DNA of 64,000 bases from Sulfitobacter sp. SK012 (GTDB lineage Bacteria > Pseudomonadota > Alphaproteobacteria > Rhodobacterales > Rhodobacteraceae), in NCBI RefSeq assembly GCF_003352085.1, contig NZ_CP025804.1, positions 4,092,001 through 4,156,000 of the forward strand, written 5' to 3'. This document shows positions 1,814-10,256 of this stretch, one piece after another; positions within the stretch are counted from its first letter, which is position 1, and each line of letters opens with the position of its first letter. The notes under the pieces were generated by a model. That model saw only the letters and a list, made by a program, of their open reading frames with translations. It ran no database searches and was not told the DNA's origin. A program made the position numbers and the translations under genes.

Positions 1814-1836
1814 TGGCGGCCCCGGAAGCTACCGAA
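1814..1836 (-). pseudogene. 3' end of a split tRNA-Arg(UCU) gene
   Basis: Read on the minus strand, these 23 bases look like a tRNA T loop (TTC followed by GGTA), a 3' T-stem strand, a 3' acceptor strand CGGGGCC, discriminator G and CCA. The acceptor strand pairs 7 of 7 (one G-U) with GGCTCCG, the 5' acceptor strand of the truncated tRNA at 10250-10256. Joining the two pieces at their shared TTC gives exactly 77 nt. The T stem pairs 4 of 5 and the T loop is not canonical, so the copy appears decayed. Interpretation: the downstream boundary of an island that split the host tRNA. Confidence 0.72.
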
Positions 1837-1935
1837 CCACTGATCATACATCGCCACAAACCCTTTACAATAAGTAACTTGGGTGGAATATATAGATCAC
1901 AACTGGTCACAGTTCAATTTAGTTAATCACAAAAA

Positions 1936-3129
1936 GTGAGTACGAAATTGATTAGAAAACTCACCGACAGCAAAGTCAAAACCGCCAAACCGGGAGATAA
2001 AGTTAAGCGCGTAGCAGACGGCAACGGCCTGACGCTGACCATCACGCCTAATGGAACAAAGACTTGGCATCTACGTTACCGTAGAGACGACAAGGCGACC
2101 ATGGTTAGTCTGGGGAGGTATCCCGATGTCAGTCTGGCAATAGCGCGGGAAAAGGCGGATCAGATGCGCGCGGCGCGCGCTACTGGCGTTGATCCGGTTC
2201 GGGAGAAAGAGCGCCAGCGGCGGCAACTTGCCGTTGCTCCGGGCGAGACGTTTGAGGAGGTCGCGGCCGACTTCTTCGCTCAAAACGCACCGGGTTGGTC
2301 TGACGCCCATGCTGACCGGTTTCGCTTCAGGATTGAGAAGGATGTGAATCCGGCCATCGGCAACATGCGCGTCGGCGATATCCGCCCGACAGATGTCTTG
2401 TCTGTGGTGCGCAGTATCGAAGGCAGGGGAGCCGTTAATAGCGGCCGTCGGGTAAAAGGCATGATCGGACAGGTGATGCGCTACGCGGTCGCTCTGGGCC
2501 TCGCGCCATTCGATCCCAGCCGAGACATAGGCGCGGCACTCAAGCCATCACCGAAGGCCAAGCACCGAGCTGCTCTGATCCACCCTGAAGAAATCGCCAA
2601 GTTCATGCGGCGGCTGTACGCCTATAATGGAACATCGATTGTGCGGCCTGCGCTGGAAGTTCTGGTCCGGACATTCCAAAGGCCGGGAGAGGTTCGCTGC
2701 ATGCGATGGGCTGACATCGATCTGGAAGATCGGATTTGGCGGGATGGCGTCACTAAGGTTGAGGGCGGGCACGCTGTGCCCTTGTCGCGGCAAGTTTTAC
2801 GCATCTTGGAAGAGCAAAGGGGAATATCCGGGCACCGGGAATATGTTTGGTCCAATCCGTACAAGCCATTCAGCGACGTTATGTTTTCCAAATTTCTGCG
2901 GACCAACCTGACTTACGATCAGTCCGAGGTTTCGGCCCATGGTTTTCGCGCGACTGCTCGCACAGTTCTGGCTGAACGCTTGAAGTACGAGCCGCGCATC
3001 ATTGAGCTGCAGCTATCCCATGCCGTGCCGGAAACTCATGGCGGGGCATATAACAGAGCGCTCTACATGGATCAGAGGTCAGAGATGATGCAGCATTATT
3101 CTGATTGGCTAGATCAGATCGCCTCTTGA
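1936..3129 (+). CDS. P4-type tyrosine integrase
   Basis: Site-specific recombinase of the P4/CP4-57 integrase group, which inserts islands into tRNA genes. About 397 residues, the usual family length. Domains: N-terminal arm-binding DUF4102-type domain (residues ~5-90, with DGNGLTL and SLGRYPDVSLA), SAM-like core-binding domain (~105-200), catalytic domain (~215-390). Catalytic residues are visible: R249 (FQRPGEVR), H335-x-x-R338 (HGFR), H362 (LSHA) and nucleophile Y372 (GAYNRA). The start is GTG at 1936; no ATG lies close by and the ribosome-binding site is weak. The gene begins ~100 bp from the 3' fragment of the split tRNA-Arg, fitting an integrase at an island edge. It appears intact. Confidence 0.9.
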   Translation: MSTKLIRKLTDSKVKTAKPGDKVKRVADGNGLTLTITPNGTKTWHLRYRRDDKATMVSLGRYPDVSLAIAREKADQMRAARATGVDPVREKERQRRQLAVAPGETFEEVAADFFAQNAPGWSDAHADRFRFRIEKDVNPAIGNMRVGDIRPTDVLSVVRSIEGRGAVNSGRRVKGMIGQVMRYAVALGLAPFDPSRDIGAALKPSPKAKHRAALIHPEEIAKFMRRLYAYNGTSIVRPALEVLVRTFQRPGEVRCMRWADIDLEDRIWRDGVTKVEGGHAVPLSRQVLRILEEQRGISGHREYVWSNPYKPFSDVMFSKFLRTNLTYDQSEVSAHGFRATARTVLAERLKYEPRIIELQLSHAVPETHGGAYNRALYMDQRSEMMQHYSDWLDQIAS

Positions 3130-3396
3130 ACTGGTCATGACCGGGTATTACCAATCAGGTTGACTGTGAGAAACGTTTAGTGTCGCGTCGATGTATCGAC
3201 CAGTAGGTCCGCGAAAGCGGTTTGAGGGGTGGCTCTCAGTAATCCGAATTCAGATGAAGTCTGGAATGAGCCAGATGGATCGCGTTCACGAAAGCCGAGG
3301 AAGCACGCCTTAATTTGGCGAGAATGCAGGTCCGGTGTCTGATCTTCCCCCGACACAGCGGCTAGGAGGGTCCCGAGAGGGGTCTGACTGGTTGCT
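3130..3396. other. Intergenic stretch without a supported gene
   Basis: I see no gene here. Short open frames on both strands lack ribosome-binding sites and recognisable motifs. The stretch lies between the integrase and a strong terminator hairpin. Confidence 0.4.
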
Positions 3397-3428
3397 GCCC
3401 TTCTCTCAAATCGAGGAGGGCTTTTTTT
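3397..3428 (+). terminator. Rho-independent terminator
   Basis: A nine-base-pair stem (3397-3405 with 3413-3421, one G-U pair), a 7-nt loop and seven T residues. It faces the plus strand. It could end integrase read-through, or be the tail of a gene that has been lost. Confidence 0.75.
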
Positions 3429-3522
3429 ATGCCCCAACCATATCCGGCAGAAGAACTGCCAATGAGCGGGTGGTTTACCGCGAAAGAAATCGTGTCCCGT
3501 GTCGCAAATCCCGGCCCGTATC

Positions 3523-4009
3523 CCTTCACAAACACCGCATCAGAATGTGGCAGGCTCATCACAAAGAAGTGGATCTTGCACTCCTTGCCGCCAATCACAC
3601 CAAGCGTCTCGCCAAAATCAACCTGCGCATGGCCCGGACGATGCGACAGCGGCACAAACACTTCCTTGGTCCGTCGCTTTTGCTCGCGCACGTAATACGT
3701 CACCGTCGTCTGACTGCCTGTATATTGGTGTTCGTCACGCAGAACCTCAAATATCCGTTTGGCTGTATGGCGCTGCTTTTTGATCAACGCTTTGTCTGTG
3801 CGCAGGATCTCATCAATAATCCCAACATAAGCATCAAGCGTTGGGCGACGGGGCTCCTCGGAACGCCGATAACCTGGGGGAAGTTCATGCCGCAGCATCT
3901 TCGCAATCGTCTTGCGATCTTTGTTGAAATACAGCGCCGCTGCACGCGCCGACATCCCATCCTTCAAACACGCTCGACGCACTCGACTATAAATATCCAC
4001 AGAATACAT
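3523..4009 (-). pseudogene. istA: IstA transposase, N-terminal fragment
   Basis: The IS21-family transposase normally has ~500 residues; here homology-like sequence covers only residues ~1-162. The helix-turn-helix region (MSARAAALYFNKDRKTIAKML) is followed by the start of the integrase core, HAQVDFGETL, with the first catalytic aspartate, and ends at FFVMSLPHSDAVFVK. The frame stays open beyond this point but no longer resembles IstA. No IstB ATPase partner is nearby. The gene cannot support transposition. Confidence 0.8.
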
Positions 4010-4115
4010 CTCCCGCCCTCCGCTTAAACGAAGGGCTCAAAGTGGCGGGATTTTACTCCGCGACAACCGCATCTCGCAGCCGTTTCTGTGGTCCAATATT
4101 GCTCCGCCTTTTACA
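3523..4115 (-). mobile_element. Truncated IS21-family element
   Basis: The intact end is near 4115, where the minus strand reads TGTAAAAGGCGGAGC. Two related blocks (GGCGGAGCAATATTGGACCAC-like and CGCGGAGTAAAATCCCGCCAC-like) follow within ~70 bp, as in the multiple terminal repeats of IS21 elements. The element is cut off near 3523, losing most of istA and all of istB. It sits inside an IS3-type fragment, showing nested insertion. Confidence 0.7.
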
Positions 4116-4251
4116 GTCCGGGCTTCCAGCCTTCAACGGTCGCCATTTCTTCTGCGGCATGCGCCTTCAGCACGCGGTAGGCCGTCGATTCAGATACAAA
4201 ATACCGCTCTTGGTTTGTGAACGTCACCGCCAATTGGTCGAGGGATCGCAT
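4111..4251 (-). pseudogene. IS3-family transposase (OrfB) fragment
   Basis: A 46-codon remnant on the minus strand contains LDQLAVTFTNQERYFVSEST and AYRVLKAH, a block typical of the region just before the integrase domain of IS3-type OrfB proteins. It ends at a stop formed where the IS21 terminal sequence joins, so the IS21 copy interrupted it. The upstream part of the transposase is missing. It is too short to be detected as an open frame of normal size. Confidence 0.6.
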
Positions 4252-4416
4252 CTGTCAGCCCGTCTGGCATTGGCCAAGCCGGGCATCCCGCGGACCACAT
4301 TTACAGTTGCCCAGTGCGATATCAAGGCACCGTTAAGGCCATCTTTGCGGCCGGCAACTGGCCGGAGTAAAATCATGGCCAAAAATCCAGCAAACCACTG
4401 TTTAAAAACAATAATT

Positions 4417-4493
4417 TGGCGACCCGGGGAGGATTCGAACCCCCGGCCAGATGCTTAGAAGGCAACTGCTCTATCCAGCTGAGCTACCGGGCC
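4417..4493 (-). tRNA. tRNA-Arg (anticodon TCT), intact, island-borne
   Basis: A complete 77-nt cloverleaf including an encoded CCA. Acceptor GGCCCGG pairs with CCGGGTC (one G-U), the D arm is GCTC/GAGC, the anticodon loop is CTTCTAA, and the T loop is TTCGAAT with a GGGGG/CCTCC stem (one G-U). The anticodon stem GTTGC/GCATC contains one U-U mismatch. It decodes AGA (and possibly AGG by wobble). Its sequence differs clearly from the split tRNA-Arg(UCU) at the island edges, so it is not a duplicate of it. Its position inside the island suggests it may supply the function lost there. Confidence 0.85.
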
Positions 4494-4966
4494 ACGGGCA
4501 TTCACTACCACCATGGCATTGGTGTTAAAAGTTAAAAAACAAAGTAAACAATTCGAAGTCATCAAGCCTTAACCTTTTCTTAACCGCCGGAAGGGGTCGG
4601 GTCTTATCCAGGCTGTCAGATAATTCGCATCTGTTCCCATCGCGCCCCTGAAAACCGAGCCAATCGTCTCGGTTTTCATTTCGCTCTGCGATGGCCAGCA
4701 AGGAACCCTCAACCCTTTGGGCTAGGTCTAGGGCTTTCTTCGTGACACCAGTTCTACGGCCAATCGTCAGCGTTTCGGTTTTTCCAACCATTAGGTAAGT
4801 TTACTGGGTCATATCCGGTGTTTAAGTTTACCCGCTCTAATACCGATTTCTGCGCTTCAATCTGTCAGCTATTCTGAGCATGGAGGCGACACCTGTGTAT
4901 CCTGATCAAATATTCCTCGTCAACTTAGCAAGGCTATGCAGTATGCGCTGCGGTCCACCAATTTTC
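4494..4966. other. Unassigned stretch between tRNA-Arg and the recombinase operon
   Basis: About 470 bp without a convincing gene. An 88-codon open frame on the minus strand (4525-4791, MVGKTETLTIGRRTG...) has no ribosome-binding site and no recognised family. The stretch has two AAGTTTAC copies (near 4800 and 4825). A 12-bp sequence, GAACCCTCAACC (4703-4714), is repeated at 10200-10211 within the truncated tRNA. Confidence 0.4.
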
Positions 4967-5593
4967 TTACCGCCCATCTTTCAGGCCTTTCCTCTTGCAC
5001 CACCCGATAAATGGCTGCGAAATATTTGCGCCAGCAATTATCTCATTTTCCTCAATGCCGGTTCTGTCTTCAATTGTATTTTTGGCGAAGTTTATCTCAA
5101 AAAACGCACGGGACAAAATTGCCTGAACCAGACTGTACGTTCGGTGACAGTCTTGTTCCCAGTCCACTTCATGGTCTTCAATCGAGGAGGCGGCCTCAAT
5201 CTGCGGGGTGCTGCTTTCCGAATCTTGCATTTTGCTGATAAACGCCTGCAAGCGACCGTTGTCTGCTGAGGCATTACTAAGTCGCAACTCGAGCTCAGTT
5301 ACCTTGTGTCTTAATTTATTCAGTTCAGCTTCCGCTCTCGACATGTATCCAGACTTGCCACCTTGTTCATTGATGTATTTTATTATTAGTACTCGGTATG
5401 CTTTATTGCGTCTTATCGTAACATCTGTAAGTCCCGTTGCCTTGGCTATAGCTTGCGACAAAGCTGTAATGGATTCGAAGTTTGCGCGGGCCTCCTTTAA
5501 CTTCGCGAGCTCCCCCTCAACTGAAGCTTTGTTTTTGGAAGTGATGGCATCCTGATATGCCTTTGCGTTTTTCGAACCTTTAGGAGCTGGCAT
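4967..5593 (-). CDS. GmtX-like recombinase-associated protein (third gene of trio)
   Basis: A 208-residue basic, helical protein starting MPAPKGSKNAKAYQD. Residues ~20-110 have a predicted winged-helix or coiled-coil look (TDVTIRRNKAYRVL, then heptad-like AELNKLRHKVTELELRL), followed by a variable C-terminal part. In position, size and composition it resembles GmtX of gamma-mobile-trio islands and, more distantly, TnpC of Tn554-type elements, which assist paired tyrosine recombinases. No catalytic motif is seen. Its ATG at 5593 overlaps the end of the 1030-residue recombinase gene by 14 bp, implying translational coupling. The assignment rests on context and overall features, not on a search. 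Confidence 0.6.
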   Translation of the reverse strand: MPAPKGSKNAKAYQDAITSKNKASVEGELAKLKEARANFESITALSQAIAKATGLTDVTIRRNKAYRVLIIKYINEQGGKSGYMSRAEAELNKLRHKVTELELRLSNASADNGRLQAFISKMQDSESSTPQIEAASSIEDHEVDWEQDCHRTYSLVQAILSRAFFEINFAKNTIEDRTGIEENEIIAGANISQPFIGWCKRKGLKDGR

Positions 5594-8500
5594 TTACGAG
5601 CCTCACTTCTGGTTTCGTGTCAGCGATAAGAGTCCCGAATTCTTGTTCGAGTAGTTCTCCTGCTTCATCCCATGTCTTACCGAGAACTTTCAGGCGAGTC
5701 TTAATTAGGCTGTAAAGCGTCAAAATTTCCTCATTCTCATCAGCAAAAACCTCCTGTTCAGACATGGCCAGTTTCCTCACCAAGCGAGACGCCTGACGCT
5801 GTAGAACTTCATCGCTCAACGACGGATACATTTTCGCGTCGACAATTCGATCCACCAAAAACTGGGCTGGTTGCACCTGCCGGACCACGCGATTTAGTTG
5901 AAGTTTGATAATGTCTGGGCTACCTGCAACGATACCTTCGGACTTTTTCTCCTCGAACAGCCGGCGGAGAGTGACGCTTGCGTCCTGCCAGCCCACCAAC
6001 TGGTAGCTGTCGGCCATGAGATTGCCATGGAGCGACCTCAGGCGAGCTCTATCCCTCCCTCCTCGCTTCTCCCTCACTAGAGAAGTACTCGTAGTCTGTA
6101 TGCGGGCTATGAGTACCCTACACTTGGCCTCGATAGCTGGTAGGTGGTCTACGGACTTACAGGCCAATTTGCAGGTGCCGCAGCGCATAGGGCCCCCAGC
6201 GGCTAAAATGACATCATCTGGGCACATTTCTCCAGCCGGGCAAATGTGGGTCTCACGGAACACCAATTCTGACGCTTGGCTGGATTTGAGAAGTTCAATC
6301 CCCTTTGGATCTTCGTTGCCGTCCTCCGATTCATGCAGATCTCGCAGGCTGCTGATACCAAACCGATGTATCACTTCTTCTGCACTATGGTCCGGCGATG
6401 TGAGCTGCGACCGCAATTCGCTTATTGAGGATGAGGCATCCAATGGCGGCCTATCTTGATGTTCGAGCACATCAACGATCTTATCAAAACCTGGGACATC
6501 GTAATACGGCGTAGAAACTGGATCGCTGTGCCCGATAAGTTCGGCCAAAACGACGTATTTTGTTGAACCAGAACGCCGAGTGACAAAGCTTGCCCTCGCC
6601 GAGTGAGGAGTGTGAACAGGCGACCAGTTCAATCGGCAAACGGCACATCCGTCAGGCCCGTCCTTTCCTGTGTCGTCTTCTTTTGGCGGCTTCACTTTTA
6701 TCAGAGGCTTAAAAGAAAAGCCACTTTCATGCAAAAAGCCCTGTAAACTAAGCAAAAGATCAACCCACACTCCCGAATAGCCCCCATCAGAAATTACCGA
6801 GCCATCCTCTTTGGCAAACAGCGGCACCAAAGGTTTGAATGGCGACAATGCGCGCCCTTCGTAGTCAGTAACAATTTCTGGTATTCCCTTTGACTGCCTA
6901 TGGTCCTGTTGGCGCTTCAGCATCTCGGCCACACGAGATAGCACTGGAATGTCCTTCGTTATCCCCGTCTTGTCTGTATTGATATGAATGAGTTTAATAG
7001 GGTCTTCATCGCTATACTTGTCGCTATGTTTGGCCCAGCTGCTTTCGTCAAGCCATTGTGAAGATTGTCCACGCAGACCAGTTTCAAGTATAAATATCAA
7101 AAGTCGGAACGCGCTAAGGTTTATGCCGTTTGATGCCCTCTTGGCCCCAACGATTAAGCGCTGAGGTATTTGAAAAACCCTAAAGACATCATCTTGATAG
7201 CTAATGTTGAACTCGGTATCGAGATCGCGAAGGTCAACCATGTGATCGGATGCTTGATTGGTGAAATTGCAAACTTTTCTTGCAATTTCGGGATGGGCCT
7301 CAAGATACATACCAATCCGCTCTACCTCTTGGACATAAAGGAACACGAGGGGATAGACCTCCTCTGTAAATGGGATCTTTGTAGTCCCAGTTGGTCGCGG
7401 GACGAACGGGAAATCCTTCCTGTGAAGTGGGCACTTGAATCCCGGCCCTGCGATATCTGTAAAATCTTGCGTTGCCAGATTCAATTCAACCCACTGAAAG
7501 AAATCGTAGATAGCGTATAGATTGGCTTTCTGGCTGGATTTCGCCAGGCCGCGTTTTTTGAGATATTCTAGATAGGTAGGGAAAGGCCTTTGTAGAAGCG
7601 TTTGGCTAACAAACGGGTATCGGGTAAATTTTCTCGGAGACACCGGCATATCGATAGGCTCTGAAGTGTGCATCTCAAATATTGGGAGCATTATCGCGAT
7701 GTAGTCGGCAAGAACATGTAAGGCCGGTCTTCTCCTTTCATTGGCAGAACGTCCAGTCTGCTCCCGGTGGATGATGTAATCAGCGAATAACTTATCCCAA
7801 AGTTGGACAGTGGTTACTGCGGGTGCAAATCCATCAACTTCTAATTGCGGGAGGAGATAGAAGTAGCTCTGATCAGATCTCCTTCGAGGAGTAATGAAGG
7901 CATTCAGCTCTTCCGGCCCTGAGCTCGTGTTACGAGCAGAGTTAAAGGCGTCCTTCTTTGCAACATTGTATTCATTTACGTCATGGTTGATGTATCCGCG
8001 TTCTGCAAATATCTTCACGGTTCTCTCAACTGAAGAAGGATTTCCTTTCCTATTTTTATTATAGTCAGACATGAAAACGTGCAGTTGTGCGGCTTCGATA
8101 CCCTTTATATCTGAAAAGTTGATCCAATCTGTGCAGTATATCCAACTCAGCGAGTATTGCGTCAGCCACTGCTGGATATGTTTTCCAAATTTCTTAACTT
8201 CTATGGATTCTGACACGTAGTTCGCTAATGTTCTGAGTACCAGAGACGGGCTTTCTTGCCTCATTTTTGGAGTTATGGCCTTCTCCATTTTGAATAGAAT
8301 TGGTAAAGTGACATCCCGCTCGCACCAAGAAAAGTACAGAACCATGCGGCAAAATTTTCGAATATGGTTCCGGCTCGAGCTTTTTTCAGTGAATGAGAAG
8401 TAATTGCAAGATAGTGCTATTTTATCATCTACACGTGCGTTTCGGGTTGCAATTTCGCAAAAAGACCTCACGATAGTTTGCGGATCATCTCTGTTTGTCA

Positions 8501-8672
8501 CTGAACTGGAGATGACCTCAGCTAGTCTCAGCTTTCTTTTCTGATCTCGACTGGGGAAATCTCCGACCTCCCGCTTAAGGGATGCGAATGTCGCATTCAT
8601 ATGGTGACGGAGTCTCTTGATAGTCAAACTATCTGAGATACTAGGCTTGTCCGATAAGTTAATCATTGCCAC
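5580..8672 (-). CDS. GmtZ-like large tyrosine recombinase (second gene of trio)
   Basis: A 1030-residue protein with a complete tyrosine-recombinase catalytic set in its second half: R534 (ETGLRGQ), H690-x-x-R693 (HSAR), H715 (LIGHSD) and Y723/Y724 (TPYYDV). The long N-terminal part (1-430) probably holds DNA-binding domains. A cysteine cluster follows the catalytic domain (C811, C817, C831, C834, C838, C851; CPAGEMC and CGTCKLAC), likely binding zinc, and a helical tail completes the protein. It is much larger than ordinary integrases, as in GmtZ and TnpB-type partners. The start is GTG 8672; ATG at 8666 is an alternative. Both overlap the upstream recombinase gene, indicating an operon. AT-rich relative to the flanks. 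Confidence 0.72.
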   Translation of the reverse strand: MAMINLSDKPSISDSLTIKRLRHHMNATFASLKREVGDFPSRDQKRKLRLAEVISSSVTNRDDPQTIVRSFCEIATRNARVDDKIALSCNYFSFTEKSSSRNHIRKFCRMVLYFSWCERDVTLPILFKMEKAITPKMRQESPSLVLRTLANYVSESIEVKKFGKHIQQWLTQYSLSWIYCTDWINFSDIKGIEAAQLHVFMSDYNKNRKGNPSSVERTVKIFAERGYINHDVNEYNVAKKDAFNSARNTSSGPEELNAFITPRRRSDQSYFYLLPQLEVDGFAPAVTTVQLWDKLFADYIIHREQTGRSANERRRPALHVLADYIAIMLPIFEMHTSEPIDMPVSPRKFTRYPFVSQTLLQRPFPTYLEYLKKRGLAKSSQKANLYAIYDFFQWVELNLATQDFTDIAGPGFKCPLHRKDFPFVPRPTGTTKIPFTEEVYPLVFLYVQEVERIGMYLEAHPEIARKVCNFTNQASDHMVDLRDLDTEFNISYQDDVFRVFQIPQRLIVGAKRASNGINLSAFRLLIFILETGLRGQSSQWLDESSWAKHSDKYSDEDPIKLIHINTDKTGITKDIPVLSRVAEMLKRQQDHRQSKGIPEIVTDYEGRALSPFKPLVPLFAKEDGSVISDGGYSGVWVDLLLSLQGFLHESGFSFKPLIKVKPPKEDDTGKDGPDGCAVCRLNWSPVHTPHSARASFVTRRSGSTKYVVLAELIGHSDPVSTPYYDVPGFDKIVDVLEHQDRPPLDASSSISELRSQLTSPDHSAEEVIHRFGISSLRDLHESEDGNEDPKGIELLKSSQASELVFRETHICPAGEMCPDDVILAAGGPMRCGTCKLACKSVDHLPAIEAKCRVLIARIQTTSTSLVREKRGGRDRARLRSLHGNLMADSYQLVGWQDASVTLRRLFEEKKSEGIVAGSPDIIKLQLNRVVRQVQPAQFLVDRIVDAKMYPSLSDEVLQRQASRLVRKLAMSEQEVFADENEEILTLYSLIKTRLKVLGKTWDEAGELLEQEFGTLIADTKPEVRLVNASS

Positions 8673-10050
8673 TCAGCCTCGCAGACCAAATATCATTCAG
8701 CCGTTTTGCCTGGTTGGAATGTTTTTCGGCCATCCACTTTACCAGCTGGTCAACTTCTGGTCCTTCATTCATAGCTTGCATATTCATGAATATAATCTTG
8801 GCATCGAGTGCATGCTTGTCCCGCCGCGCATATTTCATTGTCGTTTCGAGCTTCTCATGGCCCATCAGCCTTTGTACATCGACCGGCTCTAAGCCATATT
8901 TGTTGTTTCCGACGGGGACGTAGTTGAGCATAAAAGTGCCGTAAAAGTGCCGAAGGGAATGTGGAGTAAGCTCGCTTAAACCCAGTTTGGTTTCTGGTGT
9001 TCTTTTCTGAAGGCGTAGACATGCGCGATTAAAAGATTGCACTCTACTCTTGTCACTCACAGAAACATACGGCTTCTGGTCACCCTTTATTGACTGAAAA
9101 ACGAGCGTTTCATTAGGGTGGGGCATATACTCAGTCCTGATATAGCGTTCCAATGCCTTGAAAAACCGGTCTCGCAAGATTGGAATGAAATAGGTTTCGC
9201 TTACGGCTCGCCCCTTCCACCTTGCAATATACTCATCAGGCATTTGACTGGCGAAACGTCGGTTATGTGGATCTTCTACGACTACGGTTCTGCGAGTAAA
9301 GTCAATTTGATCCATTTCCATTAGGATTGCCTCGTGTGGTCGCATGCCTGTTCCTGCTTGCAATGCCCACAATGCTTCGTCTCTCGCGCAAGTAGCGCAA
9401 TCGAGAAAGGGGAGAATATGCTCTGCTGGAAAATCTTTGTCTCGGTTATTACTCGCGTCCTTGCCTCTCACTGTTAGGACTTTTCCAGCAGCTTTGGTTG
9501 GGTGATGGTTCATAACATTGACCAACATGCTGCTTTGGCAAATTCTCTTTATCTCAGCGCTGGACCTTTGCCGTGTCGAAACTTGGAAAATTTGTTGTGG
9601 CGCATTGCCTGCTACTCCGGTCTCCCAGTCTTCGATTTGCTGCATGTGCAATGCGTGATTGTCACTTCCAAGTAGGAATTTATTGATGGCCGCTGCATGG
9701 TTCTTGGCGGATGATTTTGTGAGCTTCGTCTGCCCCAGTATTTTGCGTGAGATAATGTCAAACTCGTTGCGAGCATTTGCCCCGGCCAGCCTGGCAGGCA
9801 AATATGCTTCGACAGCAGGCAGGATTTCGGACTGACGGCAAGGGTAACCAAACACCTTCGCTTCGGTCAAGAAGTCCAGGAACGCTGCAATATGATTTGA
9901 ATATGTCTCAACAGTTTTGGCATGGAGGCCTTCTTGGACAAGGCTATCCACGAAGAGGTCAAATGCATGAACTGAATCACCTGCGTTGTCGATCAGCGAG
10001 AACGCCTTTATGCGACCAGTTGACCGGTTCAAGCGAGTAAAGTTCTTCAT
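8659..10050 (-). CDS. GmtY-like tyrosine recombinase (first gene of trio)
   Basis: A 463-residue site-specific integrase. The N-terminal SAM-like core-binding domain covers residues ~25-130 and the catalytic domain ~205-420. Catalytic residues are R237 (TGMRPHEA), H364-x-x-R367 (HSLRH), H398 (LMGHEK) and Y407 (MKYARR). It is the first gene of a three-gene operon read toward lower coordinates, with a 14-bp overlap into the large recombinase gene. Order and sizes (463, 1030, 208) match the gamma-mobile-trio layout better than Tn554 (361, 630, 125). It starts ~145 bp from the truncated tRNA-Arg, so it marks the right island edge. Function in excision or insertion is inferred. Confidence 0.78.
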   Translation of the reverse strand: MKNFTRLNRSTGRIKAFSLIDNAGDSVHAFDLFVDSLVQEGLHAKTVETYSNHIAAFLDFLTEAKVFGYPCRQSEILPAVEAYLPARLAGANARNEFDIISRKILGQTKLTKSSAKNHAAAINKFLLGSDNHALHMQQIEDWETGVAGNAPQQIFQVSTRQRSSAEIKRICQSSMLVNVMNHHPTKAAGKVLTVRGKDASNNRDKDFPAEHILPFLDCATCARDEALWALQAGTGMRPHEAILMEMDQIDFTRRTVVVEDPHNRRFASQMPDEYIARWKGRAVSETYFIPILRDRFFKALERYIRTEYMPHPNETLVFQSIKGDQKPYVSVSDKSRVQSFNRACLRLQKRTPETKLGLSELTPHSLRHFYGTFMLNYVPVGNNKYGLEPVDVQRLMGHEKLETTMKYARRDKHALDAKIIFMNMQAMNEGPEVDQLVKWMAEKHSNQAKRLNDIWSARLSGND

Positions 10051-10199
10051 CTATTCCACCATTGAAGCCTAGTGGACGATGATAGTTATAAATGTGTATT
10101 AGTAAATATCTAAAAAGTACGTCGATAAATCGTTATAAAACAAATACGTAACAAACATCTGAGGACTGTTAATGCGTTCTGCGAGACTGGTTAACATAA

Positions 10200-10256
10200 G
10201 AACCCTCAACCTCGGACTTAGAAGGTCCTTGCTCTATCCAGTTGAGCTACGGAGCC
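10200..10256 (-). pseudogene. 5' part of a split tRNA-Arg(UCU) gene
   Basis: Minus strand: acceptor GGCTCCG, D arm GCTC/GAGC, anticodon stem AGGAC/GTCCG around the loop CTTCTAA, variable loop AGGTT, T stem GAGGG, then TTC. After 57 nt the sequence leaves the tRNA consensus (TTATGTTAACC follows instead of the rest of the T loop). The anticodon stem has an A-G mismatch at its outer pair, as expected for a decaying gene. The missing 20 nt fit the fragment at 1814-1833. This looks like the host's original tRNA-Arg(UCU). Confidence 0.8.

Follow-up and report, generated by a model that had tools for sequence, protein, structure and literature searches.

A transposon-like element with a recombinase trio that probably split a single-copy tRNA-Arg(UCU) gene and supplies its replacement in Sulfitobacter sp. 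SK012

tRNA-dependent lysogeny has been shown by deletion in mycobacteriophages and is described for actinobacteriophages such as Fionnbharth, with short common cores of 8-17 bp (PMC10865867; for this and the other papers cited, statements refer to the accessible part of the text). It has also been inferred for rhizobial prophages (PMC8631192; PMC11476347; PMC12429752), in which a broken tRNA-Leu is presumed to be replaced by an element-borne one (PMC8631192; PMC11476347) that is most like the tRNA-Leu of another genus (PMC11476347). In Tn554-related elements and strand-biased circularizing elements (SEs), an ordinary tyrosine recombinase is accompanied by a large one, and a footprint of 6 bp is left at one of the two ends; SEs follow a copy-out-like route that produces no empty site, and tRNA goes unmentioned in the main text of the paper describing them (PMC10214605). 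Here we analysed a window of 64,000 nucleotides (the whole stretch of DNA under study) from Sulfitobacter sp. SK012 and found an 8.4-kb integrated element that most probably is transposon-like, was moved by a trio of genes (A, B and C), split the T loop of the single-copy tRNA-Arg(UCU) gene and supplies a foreign replacement tRNA. Such replacement is known in phages; a trio-bearing, transposon-like element doing likewise would be a new variant.

The window corresponds to C1:4092001-4156000 of the source genome (G000; 5.18 Mb in four contigs), which was compared with a genus panel of 62 genomes and a family panel of 394, G000 being counted in both. Among the 120 matches listed for a host gene flanking the element, the best three that bear a name belong to Sulfitobacter (two at 91%) or Paracoccaceae and several others to Sulfitobacter, which points to a marine, Rhodobacteraceae-like host. 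Each genome is represented by one assembly and by its sequence alone, and coordinates are window positions unless labelled otherwise. The 5' piece of the broken gene is identical over 57/57 nt to the start of the intact tRNA-Arg(UCU) of five relatives, four of which (G007, G017, G026 and G034) came from a D-arm plus anticodon pattern search of 60 genomes, G000 included, and the fifth (G472) from a later search of all 62. The 3' piece, TTCGGTAGCTTCCGGGGCCGCCA (1836-1814, minus strand), ends at 1828-1814 in the exact last 15 nt of the native gene, CTTCCGGGGCCGCCA, which is found once each in exactly 6 of the 62 genus genomes, namely these five and G000; because this 15-mer is so restricted within the genus, the 3' piece is not a chance match. 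These identities bear out the first-pass annotation, which had taken 10256-10200 and 1836-1814 for the two parts of a split tRNA-Arg(UCU) with a joined length of 77 nt when TTC is shared. Its claim that the host gene is not restored also holds, as the G000 genome contains no second exact copy of the 15-mer; with up to three mismatches allowed in 72 kb, the only sites besides the 3' piece are the end of the intact tRNA carried by the element and one site with three mismatches.

When the pieces are joined, every difference from the native genes falls within positions 58-62, which vary among the natives themselves (GAGTC in G007, AAGTC in G034, GATTC in G017, G026 and G472). An A-G mismatch in the anticodon stem and a poor T loop had been read earlier as decay after loss of function, and this part of the annotation has to be given up: the mismatch is native, being present in the intact genes of the relatives, and there is no sign of decay because 57/57 and 15/15 nt are still native. 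To judge from the letters, the 5-nt change is a mark of the junction and not scattered mutation. Joining of the two pieces in trans was considered and rejected, since neither piece holds the native letters of positions 58-62.

The intact tRNA-Arg(UCU) of the element, already recognised as different in sequence from the broken one, is the single tRNA reported in the window by ARAGORN and Rfam. All 38 Rfam tRNA matches of the G000 genome were typed by ARAGORN and one of them is UCU, in a set that is not exhaustive, as it holds no tRNA-Tyr. Two whole-genome pattern searches added the 5' piece, an already typed tRNA-Arg(CCU) and one site outside the tRNA matches, and this non-exhaustive typing together with both searches gave no further intact UCU tRNA in G000. 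The best match of the element's tRNA is 70/77 nt, to UCU tRNAs of other genera in the family, and it is matched at E <= 1e-14 in 72 of the 394 family genomes (G000 counted); for the two best matches the similarity stops within a few bases of the tRNA, and for another it extends 27 nt upstream (L258). By these matches, the tRNA looks foreign in origin.

The anticodon UCU reads AGA, a codon present in 12 of the 36 mechanical open reading frames (ORFs) of at least 200 aa outside the element in the window. AGA accounts for 22 of 121 arginine codons in the trio genes vs 17 of 848 in those 36 ORFs; judged by this codon usage, the AGA-rich trio makes the element a user of the UCU tRNA in its own right. 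The earlier proposal, in which the host tRNA is inactivated by an element that brings a substitute, is backed by the sole UCU tRNA found and by a second case in another genome (below). The cell would owe its viability to the complete tRNA-Arg(UCU) on the element, and it can soundly be inferred from the sequence that loss of the element would be costly to the host.

Table 1. Features of the element and its junctions (window positions).
Feature	Position	Strand	Evidence
Native tRNA-Arg(UCU), first 57 nt; break in T loop after GGTTC	10200..10256	-	identity to relatives' intact gene
Left-junction 5-nt spacer TTATG, replacing the target's five letters; next inward TTAACC	10195..10199	-	junction sequence vs natives
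Integrated element, 8.4 kb	1829..10199		bounded by two tRNA pieces
Gene A, tyrosine recombinase, 463 aa, ~150 bp inside left junction	8659..10050	-	Pfam PF00589 E 5e-17
Gene B, large second tyrosine recombinase, 1030 aa	5580..8672	-	recombinase motifs
Gene C, small protein, 208 aa, overlaps B	4967..5593	-	34% homolog, same order, in G027
Intact tRNA-Arg(UCU), downstream of C, same strand as C	4417..4493	-	ARAGORN; Rfam 61.5 bits
IS21-family transposase fragment	3362..4009	-	NCBIfam NF033546 positions 3-154 of 294; 117 bits, cut-off 160
P4-type (arm-domain) integrase, probably passenger	1936..3129	+	Pfam PF13356, PF22022, PF00589
Right-junction 5-nt spacer GGTAG, after GGTTC	1829..1833	-	junction sequence vs natives
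Native tRNA-Arg(UCU), last 15 nt, CTTCCGGGGCCGCCA	1814..1828	-	15-mer specificity in genus

The element is ordered as an overlapping A-B-C operon, the tRNA-Arg(UCU) on the same strand, the IS21 fragment and the P4-type integrase. Residues R223, H364, R367, H398 and Y407 of A are invariant among 19 sequences, and in B R534, H690-xx-R693 and Y724 (roles assigned by eye) are invariant among 16, together with a cysteine cluster. The PHROG integrase family matches B at E 0.031 and the B homolog of the second case, genome G027, at E 1.7e-6. Gamma-mobile-trio (GMT) islands, which carry defence cargo, have a similar recombinase pair plus small protein(s), but A and B fall far below the cut-offs of the NCBIfam models, with 21.4 bits (E 1.3e-4; cut-off 340 bits) for A against GmtY and 11.3 bits (E 0.058; cut-off 600 bits) for B against GmtZ. 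No structural phage family was found among six element ORFs scanned with Pfam and four with PHROGs. Fold models of A and B were of low confidence (pLDDT 64.6 and 54.1) and were not used. Inverted-repeat arms at the element ends were also tried and rejected: with the offset chosen to suit, they agree at 6/9 positions, but the best match of 12-mers does not exceed what chance gives.

The second case was found in G027, another genome of the genus panel, of which about 1.15 of 4.2 Mb was compared, and its trio matches that of the window at 45% for A (N-terminal piece 39%), 32% for B and 34% for C. Here the broken gene is tRNA-Thr(UGU): its 5' piece on contig C41 (L165 13570-13515) ends in GGTTC, then TTCTC, and its last 15 nt (G027:C20:58032-58018) are preceded by GGTTC TTCTC, so the break after GGTTC lies at the same T-loop position as in G000. 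GAGTC, which stands at this place in the tRNA-Thr(UGU) of G000 and G017 and in the G027 replacement, has been exchanged for TTCTC at both ends, and GGTTCTTCTC is present at both ends of the element. The replacement tRNA-Thr(UGU) (L164 7431-7759, on C56) is on the same strand downstream of C, and a 253-nt group I intron interrupts it directly behind the anticodon (Rfam RF00028; E 4e-7 and 1.2e-8 in separate searches, its 41 bits falling short of the gathering score of 50). Once this intron is taken out, the sequence matches the 5' piece at 56/56 nt and the 3' piece at 15/15 nt, and the 5' flank of the broken gene shows synteny with the G000 locus that holds the intact tRNA-Thr(UGU) (71% over 904 bp). 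Common to both elements are the A-B-C trio and a replacement tRNA that follows C on the same strand.

Gene order and strand are consistent across the three G027 contigs, with the 5' piece, a type III restriction-modification system and the start of A on C41, the rest of A, B, C, the tRNA-Thr, SIR2-HerA and the start of a parA-like gene on C56, and the end of the parA-like gene (by eye), a SIR2 gene and the 3' piece on C20. The element carries defence genes, with the type III system (L165:4854-11277, its methylase in two pieces), SIR2-HerA (L164:8365-11242) and the further SIR2 gene (L332:17730-18620). Eight ORFs scanned with PADLOC and Pfam gave restriction, SIR2, HerA and ParA, and seven scanned with PHROGs gave integrase, methyltransferase and unknown families, besides which the HerA ATPase matched a terminase family (E 1e-14).

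The annotation had set this locus against the usual tRNA-targeting island, and the genus provides the comparison: an island of G476 uses the same tRNA-Arg(UCU) gene but, unlike the window element, retains the complete tRNA together with a partial 3' copy 35 kb away (C1:704353; 739131-739207; L218-L220), an integrase adjoining the partial copy. A search of the relatives for an empty site between the same neighbouring genes found none, and the uninterrupted amidohydrolase/tRNA/ArsC order that the annotation had proposed to look for was not seen in any of them; of the five genomes that have the native tRNA, G007 alone matches G000, and does so on the tRNA-Thr(GGU) side (10 kb compared for G472). 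On that side, tRNA-Thr(GGU) and the 3' piece are separated in G000 by about 20 kb (G000:C1:4073945-4093814, which takes in the first genes of the window), whereas the two tRNAs of G007 are only about 0.2 kb apart.

In the mechanism we propose, A, B and C would be a recombinase set that moves the element into the T loop of the single-copy tRNA-Arg(UCU), with A and B exchanging strands at a spacer of ~5 nt that has GGTTC on one side and TTA(A)CC on the other. Their action in the interval from GGTTC to the final 15 nt would swap the 5-nt target spacer for element sequence, and neither element end would rebuild the tRNA because the target spacer is replaced by element letters. The presence of an element spacer at both junctions would need mismatched-spacer repair or a copying step. 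If the trio works like SEs, excision would not repair the tRNA and the replacement would be permanent. No functional tRNA stands at either end in G000 or G027, and we infer which recombinase acts, namely that the trio did the cutting, and also that the replacement tRNA is expressed, is essential and anchors the element in its host.

Several observations weigh against this account. The five letters of the target are absent from both ends in G000 and G027, where plain conservative exchange predicts otherwise, and the two spacers of G000 differ (TTATG and GGTAG) while those of G027 agree. The 12-mer similarity of the inner ends was equalled by 0.91 of 500 random pairs, and no consensus promoter was found in 4200-5000. 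In G027, three contigs together make up the element, and the links between them are deduced from the splitting of gene A and of the parA-like gene and from IS-like ends seen by eye; synteny at the tRNA-Thr(UGU) site holds for the 5' flank only, the downstream flank of the intact G000 gene matching contig C60 and not C20 beyond the 3' piece; and another tRNA-Thr(UGU) is possible in that genome, given the portion compared. To these is added the start of the P4-type integrase 107 bp from the native 3' end.

That position is the usual one for such an integrase, and it underlies the best surviving alternative, which we consider unlikely: the P4-type integrase, as a prophage or satellite remnant, split the tRNA and brought the replacement in ordinary tRNA-dependent lysogeny, and the trio arrived later as a passenger. 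Phages do exactly such tRNA replacement, in some cases with an attP inverted relative to the genome (PMC10865867), and in G476 another integrase starts near the partial tRNA copy in the same orientation. However, in 4/4 other genus matches of the P4-type integrase (E <= 1e-60), a tRNA 3' end lies directly upstream in sense (Leu, Met, Thr and a partial Thr copy), whereas in the window that end is antisense; the compared pieces of the G027 element yielded no such integrase, though the tRNA is broken at the same position there; and the element proteins scanned include no structural phage family. Among the 393 other family genomes, the integrase has no close homolog (E <= 1e-75). We hold the trio responsible, and not the P4-type integrase, because the G027 trio element broke a different tRNA at the same position and because relatives of the integrase have the opposite tRNA orientation.

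It is very unlikely that a canonical island had restored the tRNA and that a later deletion took the restored 3' end, the foreign tRNA being chance cargo. The IS fragment does show that rearrangements took place, and the restoring island of G476 uses the same gene within the genus, but in G027 another tRNA has its 5' piece broken after GGTTC and five nucleotides replaced at the very same position. Least probable of all is an assembly error or an overlooked UCU tRNA, with nothing lost or replaced, for although the Rfam search was not exhaustive and the assembly was available without reads, two independent whole-genome pattern searches gave no other UCU tRNA, both split pieces lie inside one 4.79 Mb contig of G000, and the same arrangement recurs in G027.

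Splitting and replacement of the tRNA by the trio-bearing element, which we prefer, shares with tRNA-dependent lysogeny a tyrosine recombinase, a non-redundant tRNA target and a tRNA that is not rebuilt (PMC10865867); a short core may be a further parallel, GGTTC (5 nt) being common to junctions and target in G000 vs the 8-17 bp of phage cores. Unlike those phages, the window element has no phage genes found in it, two recombinases plus a small protein and a break in the T loop; the hosts are alphaproteobacteria, the tRNAs are tRNA-Arg(UCU) and an intron-bearing tRNA-Thr(UGU), and G027 carries defence cargo. Rhizobial prophages have alphaproteobacterial hosts and a presumed replacement tRNA in common with the element, and differ in being prophages and in using tRNA-Leu. 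The Tn554-related elements and SEs resemble it in combining an ordinary and a large tyrosine recombinase with small protein(s) and a footprint of a few bp, a layout matched by motif and length; as far as these elements are described in the accessible text, they differ in having the donor spacer at one end and the target spacer at the other, whereas here the target letters are absent from both ends. No report of tRNA-dependent integration by recombinase-trio or other non-phage transposon-like elements was found in the open literature, judged mostly by titles and the openings of abstracts, and the accessible parts of PMC8371274, PMC9897764 and PMC10872708 hold no closer precedent.

A protein search with gene A gave 30 matches including its own, of which 18 span almost the whole protein with 64-75% identity, and with gene B 22 including its own. 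Named matches of A and B belong to Sulfitobacter (S. dubius and unclassified strains), Paracoccaceae and Leisingera (L. daeponensis), and the closest homologs of the trio occur in Sulfitobacter and metagenomes. Searches of GTDB contigs, viral contigs and plasmids gave no close relative of the trio, only matches at 24-31% identity. Gene A was present in 1 of the 61 other genus genomes (G027; E <= 1e-10) and in 0 of the 393 other family genomes (E <= 1e-20). Separately, two distant archaeal recombinases (L137 and L138) have a tRNA gene just over 100 bp away.

Taking both cases together, we lean slightly towards a family of non-phage recombinase-trio islands that lives by tRNA swapping, using the same T-loop site and a matching spare tRNA, changing target with the tRNA carried and leaving the host dependent on an island that may bring phage defence, as that of G027 does. 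If true, a transposon-like island would be hard to lose without any toxin, by owning a tRNA that the cell needs, and the host may be unable to lose it. It would also explain foreign replacement of single-copy tRNA genes, make tRNA cargo a predictor of the insertion site and mean that tRNA-dependent integration is shared by phages and a further class of mobile element.

Other tRNA-Arg(UCU) genes of the panels are unusual as well. A very different tRNA-Arg(UCU) of 78 nt is common to G004, G011, G027, G455, G458, G460 and G464 (L221-L227), and another odd one occurs in G010 (L229). By sequence comparison, the tRNA-Arg(UCU) gene may have been replaced several times within the genus. At G179:C11:43146 (L241), the complete tRNA-Arg(UCU) gene is followed after ~70 bp by a partial copy of its 3' end, which may be the scar of an attachment site.

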